Below, in pieces: positions 2,497-15,713 of a stretch of 64,000 bases of DNA (within the stretch, counting starts at the first letter, position 1; every line of letters begins with the position of its first letter). Position numbers and translations under genes: made by a program. The stretch spans positions 372,001 to 436,000 of the forward strand of contig CAJTEY010000001.1 in the NCBI GenBank assembly GCA_910575775.1, given 5' to 3'. The stretch comes from Lachnospiraceae bacterium. Its GTDB lineage: Bacteria; Bacillota; Clostridia; Lachnospirales; Lachnospiraceae. The notes under the pieces were generated by a model, which had not been told where the DNA came from, ran no database searches, and saw only the letters and a program-made list of their open reading frames with translations.

Positions 2497-3957
2497 CTAC
2501 TGCGCACGCCGCACGGACTTTTTCCCGTAATATGCGGCAATGCCCTGATTGACCCAGCCTTTCTCGTCCTCGTCAATGTAAAAGCACTCAAAATCCTCGA
2601 TATATTCCGGCATTTCCAGCTCCACATCCTCCTCCGGGCAGGTAGCCAGATAGTCGTAGATCGCCGTACATTTTTCATAGTAGTCCCTGTAGCTTCCGTT
2701 ATGCACATAGCGGGCCACACGATAGAGAGGCAGTTCCTCCACGGTCAGCGGCGTAACGATGAGCGCCGTCAGACAAATGTAGAGCAATACCGTGACCGTG
2801 TGTCCATCCGACGACAGACCCCAAAGTCTGTGACAACAGACGCCAAGAAACAGCGCCAGATTCAGAAACGAAATCACCAGGGCCGTGTCTATTATAAAAT
2901 AACATCTGTTTGGCACATAATACCCGCCATAGCCGAGCGCCACCGGAAAGTATGCCACAAGTCCCGCAGGAAGCGCAAACACCGCAGCAACACCATATTC
3001 CCGCAATGCGATCCGGCATCTTCCCGACAAATACACGCCAGCCGCTATCATCACAAGAAATACCAGTCCGAGCATGGTCTCCCGAAACAGTCTTCCCGAC
3101 TCCTCCGCAAACATGCGCGCAGTATAAGCTATCGCCTGTCCGAAATGCAGGCCGGCTCCCGCCGTTCCGTCATGTCTGGAAAAATTGCCAGGTGCAGCCG
3201 CATTGATCAGCGCACCGGCAAAGCCTGCCGCAAAGACAGCGAGATGATATCGTGAAACTTTTCCCGTGGAAAGGAAAAACACCGCCGTCAGCATCAGCGC
3301 CATATAACAGCCAAGCCCCGCAACCGCCAGCGATCCGCCGGATGACAGAAACAGGAGAACCGCCGCAATTCCCACGCAGACTTTTTTCCCACGGGAACTG
3401 CTCTCCTTCTTACTTATAAAAAGAAACAGCGTCAAGGCAATGAGCATAAGCGAAAAAGGCATACTGTACGCCACCGCCCCCGAAAACCAGAAATAGATCT
3501 CCGCATAGACGTCCGCATTCACCACTGACAAAAAGAAAAGCGTGAGAATCACCGCTTTAAACGGCATAAGGTTCTTCGCCGCGTCTGCCGTCTGGAAAAA
3601 GGAAAGCCCGGCCCACAAAAGAACCGCCAGCGAAACAAGAAACAGCAATGCGTTTCCCACCATAACAGCCCTAAGCTGCGGCAGACCAAAATTGTTGATC
3701 GGCGAGAGAAACGCCTGCAAAAACATGGAAAACCACGTGCCCTGCCAGTCCATGTACAGATCCTGCACATACAGAAGAGACGCCGCAAAATACTGCGGCA
3801 GCGAGACATGAAACGCTCCCACCCGCACGCCGTGGGTAAAATCATCCCCGCTGAAAACGGTGTAACCCGCCCCCACAGAAAAAACAACTATAACAACCGT
3901 TATTACAATAGCACACGCTATTGTAAGCAGAATTTCCGCCGCTCTTTTTCCTCTCAC
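2497..3957 (-). CDS. Multipass membrane protein, DUF6056-like / GT-C-like
   Basis: About 486 residues with roughly ten hydrophobic segments, then a soluble C-terminal tail of about 70 residues. I prefer the GTG start at 3957 because GGAGGA lies 5 nt before it; an in-frame ATG at 3987 has no ribosome site. After the first membrane segment comes SGDDFTHG (Asp38-Asp39). An acidic pair in the first extracytoplasmic loop is typical of GT-C polyprenyl-phosphosugar transferases. The segment around DWQGTWFSMF resembles DUF6056 proteins. I infer a membrane glycosyltransferase or a related polysaccharide-modifying protein acting outside the membrane; no activity has been shown for the family as far as I know. 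Confidence 0.6.
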   Translation of the reverse strand: MRGKRAAEILLTIACAIVITVVIVVFSVGAGYTVFSGDDFTHGVRVGAFHVSLPQYFAASLLYVQDLYMDWQGTWFSMFLQAFLSPINNFGLPQLRAVMVGNALLFLVSLAVLLWAGLSFFQTADAAKNLMPFKAVILTLFFLSVVNADVYAEIYFWFSGAVAYSMPFSLMLIALTLFLFISKKESSSRGKKVCVGIAAVLLFLSSGGSLAVAGLGCYMALMLTAVFFLSTGKVSRYHLAVFAAGFAGALINAAAPGNFSRHDGTAGAGLHFGQAIAYTARMFAEESGRLFRETMLGLVFLVMIAAGVYLSGRCRIALREYGVAAVFALPAGLVAYFPVALGYGGYYVPNRCYFIIDTALVISFLNLALFLGVCCHRLWGLSSDGHTVTVLLYICLTALIVTPLTVEELPLYRVARYVHNGSYRDYYEKCTAIYDYLATCPEEDVELEMPEYIEDFECFYIDEDEKGWVNQGIAAYYGKKSVRRAQ

Positions 3958-3999
3958 GCGAGTCCTCCATTCTCCCGGGAATCCCAAAAGGCGCCCACA

Positions 4000-5580
4000 C
4001 TAGAAGCTTTGATACAAAAAAGCTGCCGTGTCATAACTTCCTCCATAAATCCCCGTAATCAATAAAAGCAGCACCACACCGTAATAACAACACCATCTCA
4101 GCACCATCGGACTTTCCGTCAGCATGCGCCGCACATCCTTACCCCGTTCCTCGCATACCGAAACTGCCAGCCACAGCAGGCAGGCTGCCGCCAACAGCAA
4201 AAACCCGTACTTGCTGATTCCGCAGGACGTCACCTGCAGGATTCCTTCTTTCAACCGAAAATCCATGAAAAGCGCCCGATAAATCTCCCCTGCCTGAGAA
4301 AGGCTTTCCGAACGGATCAGCACATCCGCCACAAACACGATGAGCCACGTCCTTGCCATGGCAAAGAAGCCGTAACCTTTTCCTTCCTTTATATGGAGTT
4401 TTTCCTTCCATACACCGTACTGTGCTTCCAATACGAGGGACACACACATAATCACGCCGTAATAGACGCCCCAGAGAAGATAACTCGCAGTTCTGCCGTG
4501 CCACATACCCGTCAGCAGCCAGACCAGCATTGTCCCGATGATACCCGTCACATGCTTTCCAGACCCGGGCCATCTCTTTTTCGCGTTTTTGGCAATTTTC
4601 CGCCCCGTCCCGGACATGACAAAGGAGAACATCACATAATCCTTAAACCAGGTTCCGAGCGTAATGTGCCATCTGCGCCAAAATTCCGCCACAGACTTTG
4701 AGAAATAGGGCCTTTTGAAGTTCTCCGGCAAAGAAATGTCAAAGGTTTCACTGACTCCCAGCGCCATGTCCATATACCCCGAAAAATCCGCGTAGAGCTG
4801 TAACATATAAAGAACCACCGCCAGCGCATAAATGCTTCCCGGGAATCCACCTCCGGCGCCCCCGAACACATTTCCCACAAAGAGATTGATCCGATCCGCA
4901 ATCACCAGCTTTTTGAACGCGCCCCAGACAAACCGCTGCACGCCGGAGAGCATGCGTTCAAAGTCAAATTTGTGCTCCCGTTCCAATTCTCCCTGCAATT
5001 TCCCATAGCGGTTAAAAGGCCCCTGCGTGATCGCCGGAAAATAAGCCAGAAACAGGAAGAATCTGATCGGATTTTCCTGTGCCGGACACTGTTCCCGTCC
5101 CACATCCACCACATAGCCGATTGCCGTCAGCGTATAGAAGGAGATCCCCAAAGGCATCACTACCCGGGAAAAAAATGCATCACCCAAGGGCGTAATCAGC
5201 CCCATCTCCTGCAAAAAAGGCAAAATCACCACCATATATTTCGTGCAGAGCAAAGTGCCAAGGCCCAACACAAAATAAAGGATTTGAACGCGTTTTCTGC
5301 GCCTCTCAAATCCCACCTTCACTGCCTTTTTGCGCTCTTTGTCCGCAAGAACCGAAAGCGCCGTTTTCTGTGCCTCCAGACTGCGCTTTAAATACAGGCC
5401 ACACGCATACGCGCCTGCCCCCGTGAGTAAAAGCCCGATCGGCAGCCCGCCCGTGCCGGCCACGTAAAACAGGCCGCTTGCCACGGCCAGAATCACCCAC
5501 TGGCGCTTTTTCGGCACCAGATAGTAGAGGGCAAAGGAAATCACCCACAATATTACAAAATTGGCTGACAAAAACTGCAT
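4000..5580 (-). CDS. MBOAT family O-acyltransferase (DltB/AlgI-like)
   Basis: 526 residues, multipass. It carries the MBOAT signature: LYADFSGYMDMALG, then ENFKRPYF and FWRRWHITLGTWF, and later MWHG with the invariant His (near residue 365). GGAGGAG precedes the ATG. DltB and AlgI proteins take an acyl group from a cytoplasmic carrier and pass it across the membrane to a polymer. Here the gene lies directly after a carrier protein, a formyltransferase, an adenylation enzyme and an SGNH protein, which together mirror the DltA-B-C-D set. I infer that it transfers the acyl group loaded on the neighbouring carrier protein to a surface glycan, with the SGNH protein as partner. Confidence 0.9.
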   Translation of the reverse strand: MQFLSANFVILWVISFALYYLVPKKRQWVILAVASGLFYVAGTGGLPIGLLLTGAGAYACGLYLKRSLEAQKTALSVLADKERKKAVKVGFERRRKRVQILYFVLGLGTLLCTKYMVVILPFLQEMGLITPLGDAFFSRVVMPLGISFYTLTAIGYVVDVGREQCPAQENPIRFFLFLAYFPAITQGPFNRYGKLQGELEREHKFDFERMLSGVQRFVWGAFKKLVIADRINLFVGNVFGGAGGGFPGSIYALAVVLYMLQLYADFSGYMDMALGVSETFDISLPENFKRPYFSKSVAEFWRRWHITLGTWFKDYVMFSFVMSGTGRKIAKNAKKRWPGSGKHVTGIIGTMLVWLLTGMWHGRTASYLLWGVYYGVIMCVSLVLEAQYGVWKEKLHIKEGKGYGFFAMARTWLIVFVADVLIRSESLSQAGEIYRALFMDFRLKEGILQVTSCGISKYGFLLLAAACLLWLAVSVCEERGKDVRRMLTESPMVLRWCCYYGVVLLLLITGIYGGSYDTAAFLYQSF

Positions 5581-5625
5581 ATACTCCTCCGCGCAGAAAA
5601 TACCGCCATTCAGGCATTCTCCTTG

Positions 5626-5856
5626 CTACTCTTCTACCAACCGTGCCACCAGCTCTATGATCGCTTCTTTGTTTCTGAAGTTCTCCGCCACTACATATTT
5701 CGCATCGATTTCAATATCAAAGGCGTCCTCCAGTTCACTCACAACATTGATCACCGTAAAGGAGTCAATCACGCCCTCCTCCATCATATTGTCGCCCGCA
5801 TAACTGAGAGCTTCCTCGCAGTACTCTTCCAATATTTCCAATACCTTTTCTTCCAT
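5626..5856 (-). CDS. Acyl/peptidyl carrier protein (DltC-like)
   Basis: 76 residues starting MEEKVLEIL, preceded by AGGAAAGG at good spacing; an in-frame ATG 27 nt upstream lacks a ribosome site. The protein is acidic, and GVIDSF places the phosphopantetheine-accepting serine at Ser32, with the usual helix after it. Size and acidity fit DltC or a stand-alone PCP. It sits between the MBOAT and the formyltransferase/adenylation pair, so it is most likely loaded by the adenylation enzyme and serves as donor for the MBOAT. A fatty-acid carrier is possible but less likely given this neighbourhood. Confidence 0.88.
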   Translation of the reverse strand: MEEKVLEILEEYCEEALSYAGDNMMEEGVIDSFTVINVVSELEDAFDIEIDAKYVVAENFRNKEAIIELVARLVEE

Positions 5857-5918
5857 AATTGCTATCCTTTCCTGATCGATCATAAACCTCTTATATCGCG
5901 TCCATATACATCCCGGAA

Positions 5919-6776
5919 CTATAACGGTCGATATTTTATTTTCAGCAAATCCCCGTCCGGCAGCGGCAGATAAAGCAGCCCCGCCCCCTCTTGTCTTTTC
6001 TCCGGGACAATCTTCCGATACCGCAAAACTTCCGCGCGCACGCCTCCTATTTCCATCTGCAGCGGCGGAAAGATCCCGCTTTTCCCGTAATCCACGCTGC
6101 GCAGCAGGCGGTACACCTTCTCTTCCGGCTCACTCAAATCCAGAAACCCGTCCCCCGGTATCTCAAAAGAGCGGTACATCCGCCTATCCGGCGAAAACCT
6201 CTGCGGCCTCGCTGCGGCATTTTTCTGCAAAACGGAATCGAAGCACTCGTAAAATCCCTCGCACGCCAGATCCATCAACGCTTCCGTCAGTTCGTAAGCT
6301 TTCATATCCGGGCCGATCTCACAGCTTTTCTGGATAATGATACCGCCTTCGTCCACCCCTGCCGTCACATAATGCCAGGTGATGCCCGTCCGCTCTTCGC
6401 CCCGATAAATGACCCAGCTCGGCGCATTTCTTCCGGGATATTCCGGCAGCAGCGCATTGTGAAAGTTGATGATTGTAATATTCTCCCGTTCCACCAACGC
6501 CGCCGGAAACAGGAAATTGTTACTGGCGGAGACAATCAGTGTTTTCTCCTGTATTTCTGCGAGATAAGCGCCAAGCGCCCGCTTATCCGGCATGGACGCG
6601 AAGGGAATGCCCCTCTCTTCGCAGATCTGCCTCGTGACACCCAGCGCATGCGGCTCATGCTCGATAAATTCGAGTTCATAGCCATAATCCGTCCGTCGAA
6701 CGTCCGTATATTTCAGTATTTCCCCGGTGGCTTTCCCGTAACCGATCACCACGACTTTCTCAAAATCCGTTCTCAT
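5919..6776 (-). CDS. Formyltransferase family protein (N10-formyl-THF dependent), embedded in a Dlt-like set
   Basis: 285 residues. INFHNALLPEYPGRNAPSW followed by GVDEGG gives the full formyltransferase triad: Asn104, His106 and Asp142. The C-terminal 90 residues look like the OB-fold Formyl_trans_C domain. The start overlaps the stop of the adenylation enzyme by ATGA, so the two are translated together. Known relatives are methionyl-tRNA formyltransferase, sugar N-formyltransferases (ArnA_N, VioF) and the F domain of the gramicidin synthetase LgrA, which formylates an aminoacyl-PCP. Position next to adenylation enzyme and carrier protein favours the LgrA-like role. A nucleotide-sugar substrate remains possible. 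Confidence 0.82.
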   Translation of the reverse strand: MRTDFEKVVVIGYGKATGEILKYTDVRRTDYGYELEFIEHEPHALGVTRQICEERGIPFASMPDKRALGAYLAEIQEKTLIVSASNNFLFPAALVERENITIINFHNALLPEYPGRNAPSWVIYRGEERTGITWHYVTAGVDEGGIIIQKSCEIGPDMKAYELTEALMDLACEGFYECFDSVLQKNAAARPQRFSPDRRMYRSFEIPGDGFLDLSEPEEKVYRLLRSVDYGKSGIFPPLQMEIGGVRAEVLRYRKIVPEKRQEGAGLLYLPLPDGDLLKIKYRPL

Positions 6777-8284
6777 TTCGCGATATATTCCTTCAATTTC
6801 ACCCGGTCAATTTTTCCGTTGGCATTGATCGGCATTTTCTCCACACGGACCACCTTATTCGGCAGCATGTATTCCGGCAGCAGGTGAGAAATTTTTTCGT
6901 TGATATACGCTTTCTCCAGCTCCTCCTCGATAAAAAGCACGATCTTTTGCCGCTTCTCGTCATAGAGACAGCAATTCAAAGAAATCTCCGGCAGCGAAGA
7001 CACCGCCGTCTCAATCTCTCCCAGCTCGATCCTGTGCCCCATATGCTTGATCTGGAAATCTTTTCGTGAGAGATAAATGATCTCCCCGCGCTCGTTATAT
7101 TTCACAACATCCCCCGTCCGATAAATCAGTTCCGGCACCGCCTGATTCAGAGGATTCTGCACAAACGCCTCCTTCGTTTTCTCCGGGTTCTTATAGTATC
7201 CCATGGACAGGGATGTGCCTCTGACACAGAGTTCCCCCGGCTCCTCCCCTGTCACCGGTTCATTCTCCTCATTCAAAACGAGAATATCCGTGTTCGGCAT
7301 GGGAAATCCGATCGGAAGCGGCTCCTCGTCTGAAAATTCACGGTCTACTATATAATAGGTGCAAGCGTCCGTGATCTCCGTTGGCCCGTACAGATTGGCG
7401 TACTGCACATCCGGCAGGAATCTGCGCCACACGTTGAGCTGCTTATTCGGCATCACCTCGCCGCAGAACAGCACGCGCCGCAGCGTGTCCGACAAATCCA
7501 CGTTCTTAAATGCCTTGAGCTTCGCCACCACAATGAGCGCCGAGGGAACCCAGAAAATGGTATTGATTTTCTTTTCCTTCAAGTATTCCAGAAGCAAAAC
7601 CGGCTGGGCAAAAAGCGTTTTCGGGATAATATAAGTCGTCGCACCCGTTTTCAGGGTACTGTAAATGTCTAAAATGGAATTGTCAAAATAAAACGGCGCC
7701 TGGTTGCCAAGGCTGTCCTTCTCCGTGATGTCAAAAGTTTCCGTCACCCAGTCAATGTAGTCGATCACCGCCCGGTGGTTGATCGTCACGCCCTTTGGCA
7801 CACCCGTGGACCCAGACGTGAACAGCACATACAGAAGATCAGTGTCAATGCCCTTCCCTCTCGCCGCTTCCAAGGCATCATCCTGCACATCGGACACCAA
7901 AACCTCCTCCAACAGCAGAAACTCCCCCTTGTAATCATACGCCGAAAAGACTTCACGCAAGGTTCCTGTGGTGATCACCACGGCTGGCTCCAGCACTTCC
8001 AGAATCTTGTTGACACGACTTCCCGGCATATCCACATCAATGGGGGAATAAAAATTACAGCTATAGGCCGCCCCCATAAAGGAGACAAGCACATCCACAC
8101 CCTTTTCCAAAAAAATGGCAACAGGTTTCTTAAAGAGTCCTCTCTGCGTCAGCTCACTGGCAATAGCCCTGGCCTGCGCCCGCAATTCGCTGAAAGTAAT
8201 TTCCTTATTCTCATCCGCATAGGCCGTTTTATCGGGGAAACGCGCCGCCGTCTCATCCAGCCAGTAGGTAACGTTCGCTTTCAT
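6773..8284 (-). CDS. Amino-acid adenylation enzyme (DltA/NRPS A-domain-like AMP ligase)
   Basis: 503 residues, the normal length of a stand-alone A domain. Core motifs are intact: LFTSGSTGVPKG (A3, about 154-165), NLYGPTE (A5, about 297-303), YRTGD (A7) and NANGKIDR with the catalytic Lys near the C-terminus (A10). FYFDNS in core A4 carries Asp201, the residue that binds the alpha-amino group in amino-acid-activating domains, so an amino acid is the likely substrate. GAGAGGATAAA precedes the ATG. It should activate its substrate as an acyl-adenylate and load the carrier protein at 5626-5856. It is coupled by ATGA overlap to the formyltransferase. The exact amino acid cannot be told reliably by eye. 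Confidence 0.9.
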   Translation of the reverse strand: MKANVTYWLDETAARFPDKTAYADENKEITFSELRAQARAIASELTQRGLFKKPVAIFLEKGVDVLVSFMGAAYSCNFYSPIDVDMPGSRVNKILEVLEPAVVITTGTLREVFSAYDYKGEFLLLEEVLVSDVQDDALEAARGKGIDTDLLYVLFTSGSTGVPKGVTINHRAVIDYIDWVTETFDITEKDSLGNQAPFYFDNSILDIYSTLKTGATTYIIPKTLFAQPVLLLEYLKEKKINTIFWVPSALIVVAKLKAFKNVDLSDTLRRVLFCGEVMPNKQLNVWRRFLPDVQYANLYGPTEITDACTYYIVDREFSDEEPLPIGFPMPNTDILVLNEENEPVTGEEPGELCVRGTSLSMGYYKNPEKTKEAFVQNPLNQAVPELIYRTGDVVKYNERGEIIYLSRKDFQIKHMGHRIELGEIETAVSSLPEISLNCCLYDEKRQKIVLFIEEELEKAYINEKISHLLPEYMLPNKVVRVEKMPINANGKIDRVKLKEYIAK

Positions 8285-8293
8285 TTTATCCTC

Positions 8294-9370
8294 TCATCTC
8301 GCCGGAATCACGGGATAATAAGTATCCGCCGTCTTTTCCGTCTTTACATGATACACATCATACAGATCAGCCATTTCCAGACCGCATCCCTCTGGATCGT
8401 AGGAGCCGTAGAGCGCAATCCCTTTCTCTGCCGCCAGGTTTTTCACCTTCTCCTCCACATCCAGCGTGATCTGAAAAGCGTCCTCAGATTCTATGTAATT
8501 ATACATCATGGGCGAATAGGGTGGCAAGTATAAAATAACCTCCACGCCCGCGTCCAGCAGATAGTCAATCATCCGCGAAAACCGCCGGAAATGATGCCCG
8601 TCTATCTCCTCGTAATCGGTCATGCGATAGACCACATGCTCTTCCATGGCCTGTCTCGTCATCTCCTCCACGTCCGCAGGACTTACCTCTCGAAGCTCAC
8701 GCTGATAGCTGACACTTCCGTCAGAATGTTTGAGATAGCCTTCCGTCTCCCATTCATCCGTGTAGGAAACGGCAAACCGCTTTCGTTCGGGAAGCAGGGT
8801 GACGTTATAGCGGAAATAATCGAAAGAGAGCGCTTTGCTAAACTCCCTTCCGGTATTTTTATCTGGATTTGCCTGATCTGGAGACAGTTTGCCGTCCAGG
8901 GTCAGCATCATATAATTGGCATGGCTTTCCAATTCTTTCCACTTCTCGTTGTCGTGGCTTTTGTTAAAGAGAAAGGCGTCCACACCGATCACCGCAGTCT
9001 CCGGCAGTTTCCCCTCCGAGACCAGAATGCCCGCCACCGCCAGAAGATCGTAAATCGTTGCTTCGGACAGTCCCGCATTGTAGAAAGAATCCGTGTCAAA
9101 CATCGTTCTCTCGAAGGTGTACACACGGCTGGAGCCAAGCGCCATAATCTGCGGCGCCTTCTCCATCCCGGTTAATCGCGCCGCCAGAAGATTCCTGTCA
9201 TTGTAATCGGATTCCTCCAGACCTTCCACGTTCTTCCCCGCCGCCATCTGTGCGGCGATCTCGTCGTAAGTGACACGCAGGAGCGCGTAGGAATCCACAT
9301 ACCAGTTAACCCATCCTATGAAAAGAAACAGCGGCAAAAGAAAGAGAACCGCTTTCAACCATTTTTTCAT
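8294..9370 (-). CDS. Membrane-anchored SGNH-like (DltD/AlgJ-type) protein
   Basis: 358 residues with an N-terminal membrane segment (about 5-25) that would anchor the rest outside the cell. MALGSSRVYTF puts the nucleophile serine of SGNH hydrolases at about 80-81, and DLYDVYHVK near the C-terminus supplies the Asp-x-x-His pair. DltD, AlgJ and AlgX-type proteins with this fold work with an MBOAT to deliver or transfer acyl groups. The start overlaps the DUF6020-like stop by ATGA, and the gene sits 9 nt before the adenylation gene, completing a Dlt-like four-component set. Overall identity to DltD is not obvious, so the family name is a fold-level call. Confidence 0.7.
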   Translation of the reverse strand: MKKWLKAVLFLLPLFLFIGWVNWYVDSYALLRVTYDEIAAQMAAGKNVEGLEESDYNDRNLLAARLTGMEKAPQIMALGSSRVYTFERTMFDTDSFYNAGLSEATIYDLLAVAGILVSEGKLPETAVIGVDAFLFNKSHDNEKWKELESHANYMMLTLDGKLSPDQANPDKNTGREFSKALSFDYFRYNVTLLPERKRFAVSYTDEWETEGYLKHSDGSVSYQRELREVSPADVEEMTRQAMEEHVVYRMTDYEEIDGHHFRRFSRMIDYLLDAGVEVILYLPPYSPMMYNYIESEDAFQITLDVEEKVKNLAAEKGIALYGSYDPEGCGLEMADLYDVYHVKTEKTADTYYPVIPAR

Positions 9371-11172
9371 CGTTCGCAGCCCCTCCCAAAAGCAACGCTG
9401 AACAAAAACGGCAGCGCCACAAACACCCCATAGGCATAACGGAACTCATTGTAAACCGGAGTCGCCAGAAGCAGGCTCCCCAGCAACATCACACAGGGCG
9501 CGAATGAGATCGCCCGCCGTCTTCTGTAAAACGTGCACGCAAGCGCAAACAGCAGCAGCCATGTATTCATCCCCAGACTCCAGACCTTGTTGTAAAATGT
9601 CTGAAACCACTGCAAAAATTCACCCATGGACAGACTTACGTCATAACTGAAAACCTTTCTCTCGTTCTCGATGCCGAAAGGATTGTCCACCATGAAATAC
9701 TCGCTGTAAAGAATCTGGTCGTGAGGAATATGTAAAGCGTAATACCCCGCCGTCTGTCTGATATGAGCCTCCACATAAAGCATGGGATTGCGAAGTCCCA
9801 CTTTCAGCCAGAGCCTGGCGTACGCCCACTTGTTTTCCGCGATCACGCGCTGGTCGCCGTACTGACGTATATAATTTTTCGTCATGTCAAACAAATAAGG
9901 GTTGTAGTAATCGTCGATCTCTTCTAACGGAACAACCGCCTCCAGCATCGCCACTTCCTCCGGCTCAAGATTCCCGCCCCGCACATAGGCACAGAGAAGA
10001 TGCTGTACCGGCATGGTCAGACTCTCAATCGTGTCCGGGGGCTCCACCTGCAGTGCATGAAGAACCGGCCCCTGCCAGAGCAGATAGCAAATCAGCACCG
10101 CCGACACAGAAGCGTACATGAACCGTCTCTCCTGCCCGCAAAACTGCCGCCCTCCGCCCTCTTTTTCAGTCCGCGCACCGTCCTTCTCTTTCTGCAGACT
10201 CTGTCTTTTCATTCTGCGGCCGCTCTGCCCACGGGCTCCGTCCCTCCCTCTCCCATGGAAAAGCTGCGGCACAATGAGCACAACCGACGTCCCCAGAAAG
10301 ACGAAAATGCCGTTGCTTCTGAGCAGGCAGACCGACACTCCCGTCAGGAAAAACCAGAGCCACCGCCTGCTGCCGGACACCCCGGCCATTTTCTCCTGCC
10401 CGTCTGCGCCGGAAGAGACTTCCGCCTCTTTGACACAATGGTTTACCACCCACAGGAACAGGAGAAACGCCGCCGTAAACCATGCGTCCTTGCCCATGCA
10501 GATACTGAACATCCCGTTGACGGGTAAAAGGGCATAGAAAAATACCGCAAGGGCAAGCCAGAGGAGTCTTGTGCCCCGTCGGTACAAAAGATACAGATAA
10601 AACCCGAATACCGCTGCCGTCAGCGCCATCTGGCAAAAAGTGTACAGCGCCACCGCCGCCGTGTAATCGCCAAAAAGACCACAGCCCACCGTCAGAAATA
10701 CTTTGATGATGAGCGTATGAAAGTAGGGGTGATGATTGGATTTCGCCGCCATGCCAAGCGCCTGTTCCATCTGCCACACCGCATCGTTGTTAAACCACGT
10801 CGGATAATACATAAGATAGTAAGGGAGATAGCAGATCAGACACAGCAGGGAAAAAAGAAGCCAGATCCACCAATGTCCCTTTCGTCCCTTCCTCGGCGGA
10901 AAAAGTCTGTGATAAAACTCCAGTACACCCGAAGGAAGACGGCCAGACAGAGCCGCTGTGTTCTCCAGAAGAAACCCCGCCGCAAGCATTACAGCGAAGC
11001 TTCCCGCCGCCCAGAGCACAAGCCGTCCCAGATTCTGCGCATTGCTGTAGTCCACCGAGCCCTGCCAGTCCCCCAGCACGACGAAACAGGCATAACAGAG
11101 AGCAATGGGAACCAGAGGCAGGAGCTTACGTCCCGTAGGGCGCTGTATTTTCATATCCCTTTCTGATCCCAT
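9367..11172 (-). CDS. Multipass membrane protein, DUF6020-like (GT-C-like)
   Basis: About 601 residues. I chose ATG 11172 because GGAGG lies 7 nt upstream; the ATG at 11193 overlaps the previous stop but has no ribosome site. There are many membrane segments, with a charged cytoplasmic insert rich in Arg, Lys and Gly around residues 310-345. YPTWFNNDAVWQ (Asp near 130) and then NHHPYFHT match the pattern of DUF6020 proteins, with LLRSNGIF further on. It is a paralogue of 36071-37711, which shares these blocks plus a KVGLRNP/RVGLKKP block. The acidic residue in the first outer loop suggests a GT-C-type transferase. Activity is inferred only. Confidence 0.65.
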   Translation of the reverse strand: MGSERDMKIQRPTGRKLLPLVPIALCYACFVVLGDWQGSVDYSNAQNLGRLVLWAAGSFAVMLAAGFLLENTAALSGRLPSGVLEFYHRLFPPRKGRKGHWWIWLLFSLLCLICYLPYYLMYYPTWFNNDAVWQMEQALGMAAKSNHHPYFHTLIIKVFLTVGCGLFGDYTAAVALYTFCQMALTAAVFGFYLYLLYRRGTRLLWLALAVFFYALLPVNGMFSICMGKDAWFTAAFLLFLWVVNHCVKEAEVSSGADGQEKMAGVSGSRRWLWFFLTGVSVCLLRSNGIFVFLGTSVVLIVPQLFHGRGRDGARGQSGRRMKRQSLQKEKDGARTEKEGGGRQFCGQERRFMYASVSAVLICYLLWQGPVLHALQVEPPDTIESLTMPVQHLLCAYVRGGNLEPEEVAMLEAVVPLEEIDDYYNPYLFDMTKNYIRQYGDQRVIAENKWAYARLWLKVGLRNPMLYVEAHIRQTAGYYALHIPHDQILYSEYFMVDNPFGIENERKVFSYDVSLSMGEFLQWFQTFYNKVWSLGMNTWLLLFALACTFYRRRRAISFAPCVMLLGSLLLATPVYNEFRYAYGVFVALPFLFSVAFGRGCER

Positions 11173-11192
11173 GCAATTTCCTCCGTACTCCA

Positions 11193-12317
11193 TCAGCTTT
11201 TATGCTTTCTGCGGTATGCCCCGCACACTTCCTCTATATAGTCCCGCCACTGTCCGTAAATCGCCTCATCATTAGCTCTCAGCGCGATCTTTCTCGCCTC
11301 CCGGCCAAGCCTTTCGGCCAGCGCCGGATCCTCGATCAGCCGGTTGATGCCGTCCTCCATCGCCTTTTGGTTCTTGATCGGAATGAGCAGACCGTCCACC
11401 TCGTTTTTCATAATCGTGCGCGGGCCGCCGCAGGGACAGTCCGTCGCCACAATGGGCAGTCCAAGCGCCATCGCCTCCATCAGAGCGTTCGGCAGCCCTT
11501 CCCAATCCGAGCTGAACGCAAAGAGCGCCGCATCCGGGAGCTGCTTTTCCAGACTGTCACTGGCGCCCATCAGATGCACATAATCCTGGGCCTTAAGTTC
11601 TTCTATCGTCCTCTCCAGAAGCGCCTTCGTGCCGTCCTCCGTGTCCCTGCCGTATATTTTCAGATCGTAATCCGGGTGCTTCTTATGCACCTCGCAAAAA
11701 GCCCGGATCAGCATCACCTGATTTTTGAAATCCACAAGCCGCCCGGACTGCACCACCGTCTTCGTGCGCTTCTCCGGCTCCGGCACGCCGATATACTTGG
11801 GATTCAGCGGATTTAAGATAATGCGCGAATTTTTCTGCAATCTGGGCGCAAAGAACTCTCTCGCCCCTTCCGTCTGAAAGACGCAGCCGTCCGCTCTCGG
11901 AAACAAAAAAGGAATCTGCACCTTATCAAAAGGCCTGTCATAATGCCCCACCGGGTCTGTCCGTATGGAAATCAGCACCGGGATCTTCATAAAATAAGCC
12001 GCCGTCAGCCCCCGGTACAGAGCCTTTCTCGCAAATGGGATCAGAATGTCCGGCTTTTCTTTTTTCAGAAATTCTTTCAGATAACGGATGCGCAGAAAAA
12101 ACTGGGTCAGACGGCTTTTCTTCTCATCCCCCGGCCTGAGCCCCACATGCACGCGCCGCACTCTCTCGTCGATCCAAAATTCATCCTCACCCTGCCACTC
12201 TGTAGCGACAAGCACCTCATAGCCGTTCTGCACAAAACGGTTGGACAGATTGGAAACCACCCGCTCTGCTCCGCCCTGTTCCAGACAATTCAAGTGAAAC
12301 GCAATCTTTCGTGCCAT
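11193..12317 (-). CDS. Glycosyltransferase family 4 protein (first of three adjacent)
   Basis: About 374 residues. ATG 12317 follows GGAGGAG; a TTG 12 nt upstream is in frame but less likely. The N-terminus has the GGAER phosphate-binding loop of GT4 enzymes (HLNCLEQGGAERVV), and the C-terminal Rossmann domain has the EX7E motif in WEGLPNALMEAMALG. These retaining transferases use nucleotide-sugar donors on the cytoplasmic face to extend a lipid-linked glycan. It is the lowest-coordinate member of three consecutive GT4 genes. Sugar specificity cannot be read. Confidence 0.9.
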   Translation of the reverse strand: MARKIAFHLNCLEQGGAERVVSNLSNRFVQNGYEVLVATEWQGEDEFWIDERVRRVHVGLRPGDEKKSRLTQFFLRIRYLKEFLKKEKPDILIPFARKALYRGLTAAYFMKIPVLISIRTDPVGHYDRPFDKVQIPFLFPRADGCVFQTEGAREFFAPRLQKNSRIILNPLNPKYIGVPEPEKRTKTVVQSGRLVDFKNQVMLIRAFCEVHKKHPDYDLKIYGRDTEDGTKALLERTIEELKAQDYVHLMGASDSLEKQLPDAALFAFSSDWEGLPNALMEAMALGLPIVATDCPCGGPRTIMKNEVDGLLIPIKNQKAMEDGINRLIEDPALAERLGREARKIALRANDEAIYGQWRDYIEEVCGAYRRKHKS

Positions 12318-14717: not shown

Positions 14718-15638
14718 TTATTCTAATATGTCCCCCGCTTTCAGCTCCAGACTGCTCTCGTAACGGTCGATCAAAAGCGACCCGTCCACTGTGCGCACTA
14801 CGGGCTTTTTGTCAAACACGTCGATCACCTCACCCGGCGCATACGCCGAGAAATCAATCATCTCGTCAAAGGGATGAGCCGTCCAGACGCGCACCTCTTC
14901 TCCTCTGCAAACCGCAAAGGCTCCCGGAAAAGGGGCCGCCACGCCACGGATCAGATTGTAAATATCACGTGTCCTGTTATGAAAGTCAATTTTTCCGTCC
15001 GCCGCTGTGCGCTTCTCATACCAGGAATCAAAATCCCTGGAATCTGTACGGATCTCGATATGCCCGCTCTCATAGGCGCTCAAAAGCTTTCGGATCAGCC
15101 GTTTGGAACAGATCATATTCTTGTACTGGGCCGTGCGGATATCGTCGTGGGGCGTGATCGAGAACATCTCCGTGGCAAACACATTGGGACTGTCCGCCCT
15201 CTCGTCATAGCGGAACAGATTCAGGTTAAACCGGGTGTCCCCCAGAATCACAGACCAGTTTAAGGGCGAGCGTCCTCTGCCGAAGGGAAGGTACCCGCTG
15301 TTGCCGTGAAACCCGTAAATACCGTGCTTAAAGCAGTCCAGCACACTGGCCGGGATCAGCCGCTGCCAGCCCATGGAAATGCCGATGTCAAACTCGTTCT
15401 CCCGCATCAGCTTCCGCGTCTTTTCGTCCGTCAGGAAATAGCTGTCCGCCTCGTGCACGGGAATCCCGTACTTTTCCGTCAGCACAGACAGTCCTCTATA
15501 ACCCGAAACCTGGTTTTTTTTCGTCACCTCCGGGCTGATCGTGATGACCAGATCTACCGGGCAGATTTCCTTCTGAATGAAATTTACGATATTTTCCGAA
15601 GTATCCTTCACACCGAAAACAACGACCCTATATCTCAT
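14718..15638 (-). CDS. Second formyltransferase family protein, probably a sugar N-formyltransferase
   Basis: About 306 residues from the ATG at 15638, which has GAGAGG just upstream. GFHGNSGYLPFGRGRSPLNW carries the catalytic His111, and the Asp is likely Asp149 in ERADSPN. The position of the usual triad Asn holds Gly109, as in a subset of formyltransferase-like proteins that begin this motif G-x-H. The C-terminal half includes IDFHNRTRDIYNLIRGV and PFPGAF, like the region of sugar formyltransferases after the catalytic domain. It lies between GT4 genes and wbpP rather than in the Dlt-like set, so a 4-amino sugar nucleotide, for instance the PglF/PglE product, is a reasonable substrate guess. 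That is inference. Confidence 0.75.
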   Translation of the reverse strand: MRYRVVVFGVKDTSENIVNFIQKEICPVDLVITISPEVTKKNQVSGYRGLSVLTEKYGIPVHEADSYFLTDEKTRKLMRENEFDIGISMGWQRLIPASVLDCFKHGIYGFHGNSGYLPFGRGRSPLNWSVILGDTRFNLNLFRYDERADSPNVFATEMFSITPHDDIRTAQYKNMICSKRLIRKLLSAYESGHIEIRTDSRDFDSWYEKRTAADGKIDFHNRTRDIYNLIRGVAAPFPGAFAVCRGEEVRVWTAHPFDEMIDFSAYAPGEVIDVFDKKPVVRTVDGSLLIDRYESSLELKAGDILE

Positions 15639-15713
15639 GTGCCTCTCTTTCCCTTCTCTTTTCTGCAGGTTTATCCCGGTCATGGCGAAACGCTTACCGC
15701 ATCCCGCCTTCCA

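Follow-up and report, generated by a model that had tools for sequence, protein, structure and literature searches.

A Dlt-like gene set with a carrier-linked formyltransferase: probable delivery of an N-formylated amino acid to a surface glycan in Lachnospiraceae

Gene set and genomic setting

What might a formyltransferase do in the middle of a Dlt-like gene set? The question is raised by the window, the 64,000-nucleotide stretch of a 4.9 Mb Lachnospiraceae genome analysed here, in which an initial annotation had recognized five genes and proposed that they decorate a glycan with an N-formyl-aminoacyl ester. D-alanylation confers positive charge on Gram-positive envelopes and resistance to cationic peptides; because a formyl cap would remove the positive charge of a D-alanyl-type ester, the effect of such a modification should differ from that of classical D-alanylation. 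We consider it likely that a Dlt-like relay here delivers an N-formylated amino acid to a surface glycan, with the substrate, the order of formylation, the acceptor and the linkage as we infer them below. The observations on which this reading is based are gene order, family membership, motifs, co-occurrence, fusions and phylogeny.

The five genes are tightly packed on the reverse strand (bases 4000-9370), in the order SGNH, adenylation enzyme (A), formyltransferase (FT), carrier and MBOAT. The A and FT genes overlap by 4 bases, and the remaining intergenic gaps measure 9-45 bases. The set and its relevant neighbors are as follows.

9367..11193, - strand: DUF6020 membrane protein, directly upstream in most window-type loci
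8294..9370, - strand: SGNH-family extracytoplasmic transferase with an N-terminal membrane anchor, DltD/PatB role (motifs, predicted fold)
6773..8284, - strand: stand-alone amino-acid adenylation enzyme, DltA role (AMP-binding, TIGR01733, pocket code DNLFLCLDAK)
5919..6776, - strand: N-formyltransferase of the 10-formyl-THF type, carrier-linked clade (Formyl_trans_N, N104/H106/D142, W134, AlphaFold2 model)
5626..5883, - strand: carrier protein, DltC role (PP-binding, DltC-like, Ser41 in IDSF)
4000..5580, - strand: MBOAT, DltB role (MBOAT/DltB-like, His361, C-terminal FLYQSF at 521-526)
2497..3987, - strand: DUF6056 membrane protein, downstream neighbor in many window-type loci
14718..15683, - strand: second FT, of the sugar type (ArnA/PRK06988-like, with Formyl_trans_C), outside the module and an internal control for the module FT

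The description of five contiguous genes, with the F, A and PCP activities on separate proteins, was borne out: all open reading frames lie where they had been placed, and Pfam and NCBIfam agree on their families. Pfam matches were obtained for AMP-binding (1.3e-70), Formyl_trans_N (5.7e-20), PP-binding (2e-4) and MBOAT (5.2e-12), and NCBIfam matches for amino-acid adenylation (TIGR01733, 345 bits, over the cut-off), DltC-like (2.4e-10) and DltB-like (1.6e-46) models. The amino-binding Asp of the A enzyme and the intact Asn-His-Asp triad of the FT, as first noted, were likewise confirmed.

The surrounding cluster is of the surface polysaccharide kind, with glycosyltransferases, a UDP-GlcNAc dehydrogenase (TviB kind), a TviC-like epimerase, the amino-sugar genes for a LegC-like aminotransferase and a PseB-like dehydratase, and an asparagine-synthase-like amidotransferase (L162). 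The DUF6020 protein possibly has a role in glycan assembly or export. Farther downstream, positions 1668-2426 encode a polysaccharide-deacetylase-like protein (a weak match, below the cut-off). ArnD is the deformylase partner of ArnA, and this protein could act in the same way with the sugar-type FT (14718-15683).

Adenylation enzyme, carrier and acyl transfer proteins

The A enzyme carries the amino-anchoring Asp201 (PheA D235) and the catalytic Lys491. Pocket codes, read against a PheA fragment, gave DNLFLCLDAK with almost no exception in window-type loci, DVKIMSLCNK in a second large group (type II), and other codes in loci with KASIII genes, a distribution that suggests one substrate per pocket-code group. 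For the window type, the substrate may be a small amino acid, with alanine as a guess: bulky residues make up most of the pocket, and a Cys occupies position 301 (PheA numbering), as in DltA. The carrier has its phosphopantetheine-accepting Ser41 in an IDSF motif, and D-S-x is present in 74 of 76 carriers of the FT loci (best 80 of 123 FT relatives).

No further A enzyme related to this one was found in the genome, which thus appears to have a single Dlt-like loading system, the one described here. This fact, together with the presence of DltA, DltB and DltC among the nearest curated models and the Cys at position 301, would fit a set that is simply the DltABCD system of the organism, in which D-alanyl esters are formed and the FT is inactive or has an accessory role. 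However, the proteins score far under the cut-offs of the DltA (TIGR01734, 328 bits versus 560), DltB (TIGR04091, 159 versus 375) and DltC (NF003464, 40 versus 68) equivalogs, the FT triad is intact and invariant, and the genes lie within a polysaccharide cluster. We therefore regard a plain Dlt system as very improbable.

The MBOAT shows the conserved His361 and the C-terminal FLYQSF. Of 57 MBOATs in the loci, 55 terminate in FxYxxF, and the remaining two are cut by contig ends. According to PMC12148441, the tyrosine of FxYxxF bears the acyl group, in PatA itself and, for the Dlt pathway, in DltX, a separate protein; the built-in motif is linked there to acyl-CoA-fed MBOATs and carriers to DltX. 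A carrier-type set whose MBOAT has the built-in motif is a combination that was not found in the passages of that paper considered here. As the window MBOAT bears the shuttle motif itself, DltX would not be needed.

The SGNH protein is weakly recognized by sequence (DUF1574, below the cut-off), and its assignment is backed by motifs and predicted fold. GSSR (79-82) and DxxH (D338-x-x-H341) are invariant in 20 orthologs. The model is of modest confidence (mean pLDDT 56 overall), and its predicted core matches SGNH/GDSL enzymes, with hits to DltD (6o93, Foldseek E 9.6e-4; VIA Z 9.2-9.6) and PatB (Z 8.6). The pair thus combines an MBOAT with C-terminal FxYxxF and conserved His with a partner SGNH protein containing Ser and DxxH, as in MBOAT-SGNH relays.

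Phylogeny of the formyltransferase

The FT belongs to the folate-dependent N-formyltransferase superfamily, with a Formyl_trans_N domain and a triad (N104, H106 and D142) that is invariant in 49 relatives. Its AlphaFold2 model (pLDDT 96) has the fold of folate-dependent formyltransferases. Sugar and tRNA FTs share this fold, and the model is equally near sugar enzymes, including the GDP-perosamine FT WbkC (TM 0.8); a second structural comparison had no LgrA among its 50 listed matches. Such neighbors, together with the LegC/PseB-like amino-sugar genes of the cluster, which mean that a sugar amine may be the substrate, speak for an ordinary nucleotide-sugar FT sharing the operon by chance, while A, carrier, MBOAT and SGNH attach a plain amino acid.

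Sequence relationships point elsewhere. A tree was built from 69 formyltransferases, of which 51 are carrier-linked and three are NRPS F domains (L106, L107 and L166), after long-branched rows had been dropped. The 51 carrier-linked FTs occupy one side of a branch (SH-aLRT 99), apart from ArnA-type sugar enzymes, in a tree built without FdtF, QdtF, WlaRD and WbkC. They form one side with the three F domains (54 rows, support 95), a grouping that rests on these three sampled domains, with LgrA not in the tree. ArnA, the second FT of the window, Fmt, PurN and PurU all fall outside. In an earlier tree with a single NRPS F domain, that domain was unplaced; it was placed once two more had been added and the long-branched rows dropped. 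The alignment agrees: T-W-H (containing W134) and LRxxD(Y/F)G are common to carrier-linked FTs and NRPS F domains and were not found in ArnA, Fmt, PurN or the other FTs aligned.

Conservation across genomes

Scanning about 85,000 species genomes from Bacteria and Archaea with an alignment of the FT yielded 123 relatives, mostly from Lachnospiraceae, of which the best 80 were taken with their flanks. Because the scan was seeded with A-linked FTs, these 80 lean toward an A context, and the following proportions hold for this FT clade only: the FT lies directly beside an A gene in 68, is fused to it in 3, has one nearby in 2, is cut off by a contig end in 4 and has none near in 3. Of the best 80 of 123, 71 thus have A beside the FT or fused to it; a carrier is nearby in 66 and an MBOAT in 56. 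The initially noted order, SGNH-A-FT-ACP-MBOAT, was found contiguous in 28 of the 80, and A-FT-ACP-MBOAT-SGNH in 10 more, which argues that the arrangement is not due to chance. In three species A and FT form a single protein, in that order, of 792, 804 and at least 716 aa (L051, L057 and L072); carrier, MBOAT and SGNH follow the fusion in the first two. These fusions comprise A and FT only and the window genes are separate, neither being part of a fused A-PCP-C assembly line.

Two of the three FT loci with no A near (L037 and L046) have a close A homolog elsewhere in the genome; that of the L046 genome lies in its own A-carrier-MBOAT-SGNH set and has the matching type-II pocket code. At L019 (5300-9048), where no MBOAT is present, an FT of the clade has an AMP-ligase and a carrier as neighbors, together with an unrelated tRNA-synthetase-like gene that looks like an amino-acid:carrier ligase. 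In the converse direction, 102 of 250 family genomes contain A relatives and 10 contain the FT, which rules out that the A enzyme is always accompanied by an FT; Dlt-like A/carrier/MBOAT sets far more often lack an FT than have one.

These data speak against the nucleotide-sugar reading. Dozens of species have the FT gene inserted between those for A and carrier, ArnA and the second FT of the window fall outside its clade, and this co-conserved second enzyme already provides the cluster with a sugar FT. As a control, none of these A enzymes was found beside other accessory FTs in Lachnospiraceae family genomes. Tree, motif and neighborhood thus all stand against a sugar FT: the grouping with nucleotide-sugar enzymes and sugar genes that would have contradicted the initial annotation was not seen, and we judge the chance association unlikely.

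Proposed pathway

In the delivery of an N-formylated amino acid that we favor, the A enzyme would activate a small amino acid and load it onto the Ser41 phosphopantetheine of the carrier, where the FT would formylate the amino group with 10-formyl-tetrahydrofolate as the presumed donor. The MBOAT would then take the formyl-aminoacyl group from the carrier onto its own Tyr523 (FLYQSF), by analogy with PatA and DltX, and the SGNH protein may move it to a hydroxyl of a capsule-like polysaccharide from the surrounding cluster, forming an ester. As far as sequence goes, the clade, its neighbors and the three A-FT fusions support the N-formyl-aminoacyl ester first proposed.

The A-FT-carrier core also occurs without MBOAT, with KASIII genes (L040, L052, L063, L096 and L103) or in a Pse/Leg-type cluster (L065). 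Ester transfer to a glycan would therefore be one among several uses, the capped aminoacyl-carrier probably being a shared intermediate that feeds more than one product. Such loci, and the N-formyl-L-alanyl group reported in the O-antigen of Vibrio anguillarum O2 (PMC10059132), also lend some weight to a different fate in the window, in which the formyl-aminoacyl group would pass as an amide to an amino sugar in the cell, or into a secreted small molecule, while MBOAT and SGNH serve another acyl group. Yet in window-type loci the MBOAT and SGNH genes directly adjoin the module, no other acyl source lies inside it, and the genome has this one A enzyme only, so that we consider such a diversion improbable. 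Adjoining the A-FT-carrier set of L065 is a NeuB/PseI-like synthase with a fused C-terminal formyltransferase domain (L065:10181-11836).

At two loci (L197 and L069), the FT position between the carrier and an A enzyme with the same pocket code as in FT sets is taken by a GNAT-like acetyltransferase, with an MBOAT alongside; the GNAT match of L069 is weak, and the two proteins are related (E about 6e-11). If this enzyme acetylates the amino acid, the place between A and carrier would, on the basis of these two loci, be a capping slot. We are evenly divided on a still broader proposal of general N-capping in Dlt-like pathways, in which an FT or GNAT in the same slot would cap carrier-bound amino acids, an MBOAT with a built-in acyl-tyrosine shuttle would place neutral capped aminoacyl esters on glycans, KASIII and sugar pathways would draw on the same A-FT-carrier core, and the FT would be a free-standing relative of NRPS F domains.

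Most FT-less sets inspected differ in pocket code; SMLYLALDIK, for example, has no amino-anchoring Asp. In the Dlt-like A-carrier-MBOAT-SGNH sets of L201, L203, L204, L207 and L209, a pocket Ser replaces that Asp (SMLYLALDIK-like), and, judging by the code, these enzymes likely load an acid without an alpha-amino group. Antibiotic_NAT proteins (aminoglycoside 3-N-acetyltransferase-like) adjoin a carrier and an A enzyme with the same pocket code as in FT sets at L198 6783-7637, L200 9839-10639 and L212 6848-7639. We do not rely on them as capping enzymes: the loci are polysaccharide clusters with no MBOAT within the stretch seen, and the proteins may acylate sugars instead.

Many type-II (DVKIMSLCNK) formyl sets are accompanied by a WbuX-like PP-loop amidotransferase (TIGR03573, below the cut-off), found at L015 5837-6850, L017 9824-10861 and L018 11508-12521 and also in L030, L036, L045, L047, L054, L057 and L059. 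It might convert the formamide to a formamidine.

Discussion

The window set resembles the Dlt system (DltA, DltB, DltC, DltD and DltX) in its stand-alone A enzyme, separate carrier, carrier-fed MBOAT and acceptor-side SGNH protein, but it adds an FT, adjoins a capsule-like cluster and falls under the Dlt cut-offs. With PatA/PatB, and also AlgI/AlgJ/AlgX, it shares the C-terminal FxYxxF acyl-tyrosine motif of the MBOAT and a separate SGNH protein, as set out in PMC12148441; that type uses acetyl-CoA, whereas the window set would receive an amino acid from a carrier protein. The initiation module of linear gramicidin synthetase (LgrA) likewise unites F, A and PCP activities, presumably with formylation of the aminoacyl-carrier. 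Unlike LgrA, window-type sets consist of separate proteins or A-F fusions without condensation domains, and their product would pass to a membrane acyltransferase rather than into a peptide. Sugar N-formyltransferases of the ArnA/WbkC type have the same fold, folate-type motif and Asn-His-Asp triad; the window FT differs from ArnA in its separate clade, in T-W-H instead of T-L-H, and in its A and carrier neighbors.

No description of an FT with MBOAT/SGNH or with adenylation/carrier proteins was found in openly licensed literature, and the gene set appears undescribed; the chemistry, however, has a precedent in the N-formyl-L-alanyl group of the O-antigen (PMC10059132), a paper whose text, when searched, names neither a formyltransferase nor an acyl carrier or adenylation enzyme. 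This capped variant of Dlt decoration appears to be both widespread and previously undescribed.

If the proposed delivery is correct, Dlt-like systems would be a general route by which surface glycans receive groups derived from amino acids, here with a masked amino group. The set occurs in many Lachnospiraceae, including several that come from animal guts, and their surface glycans face the host. Carrier-linked FTs also link NRPS F domains to stand-alone enzymes, and the free-standing FT (about 285 aa) and carrier (about 85 aa) suit the study of how F domains recognize carrier-bound substrates. Plasmid pMAH135 of M. avium carries a gene labeled "methionyl-tRNA formyltransferase" (L167 4857-5795); it adjoins a DHA2 exporter and a large NRPS and is probably a misnamed NRPS formyltransferase.
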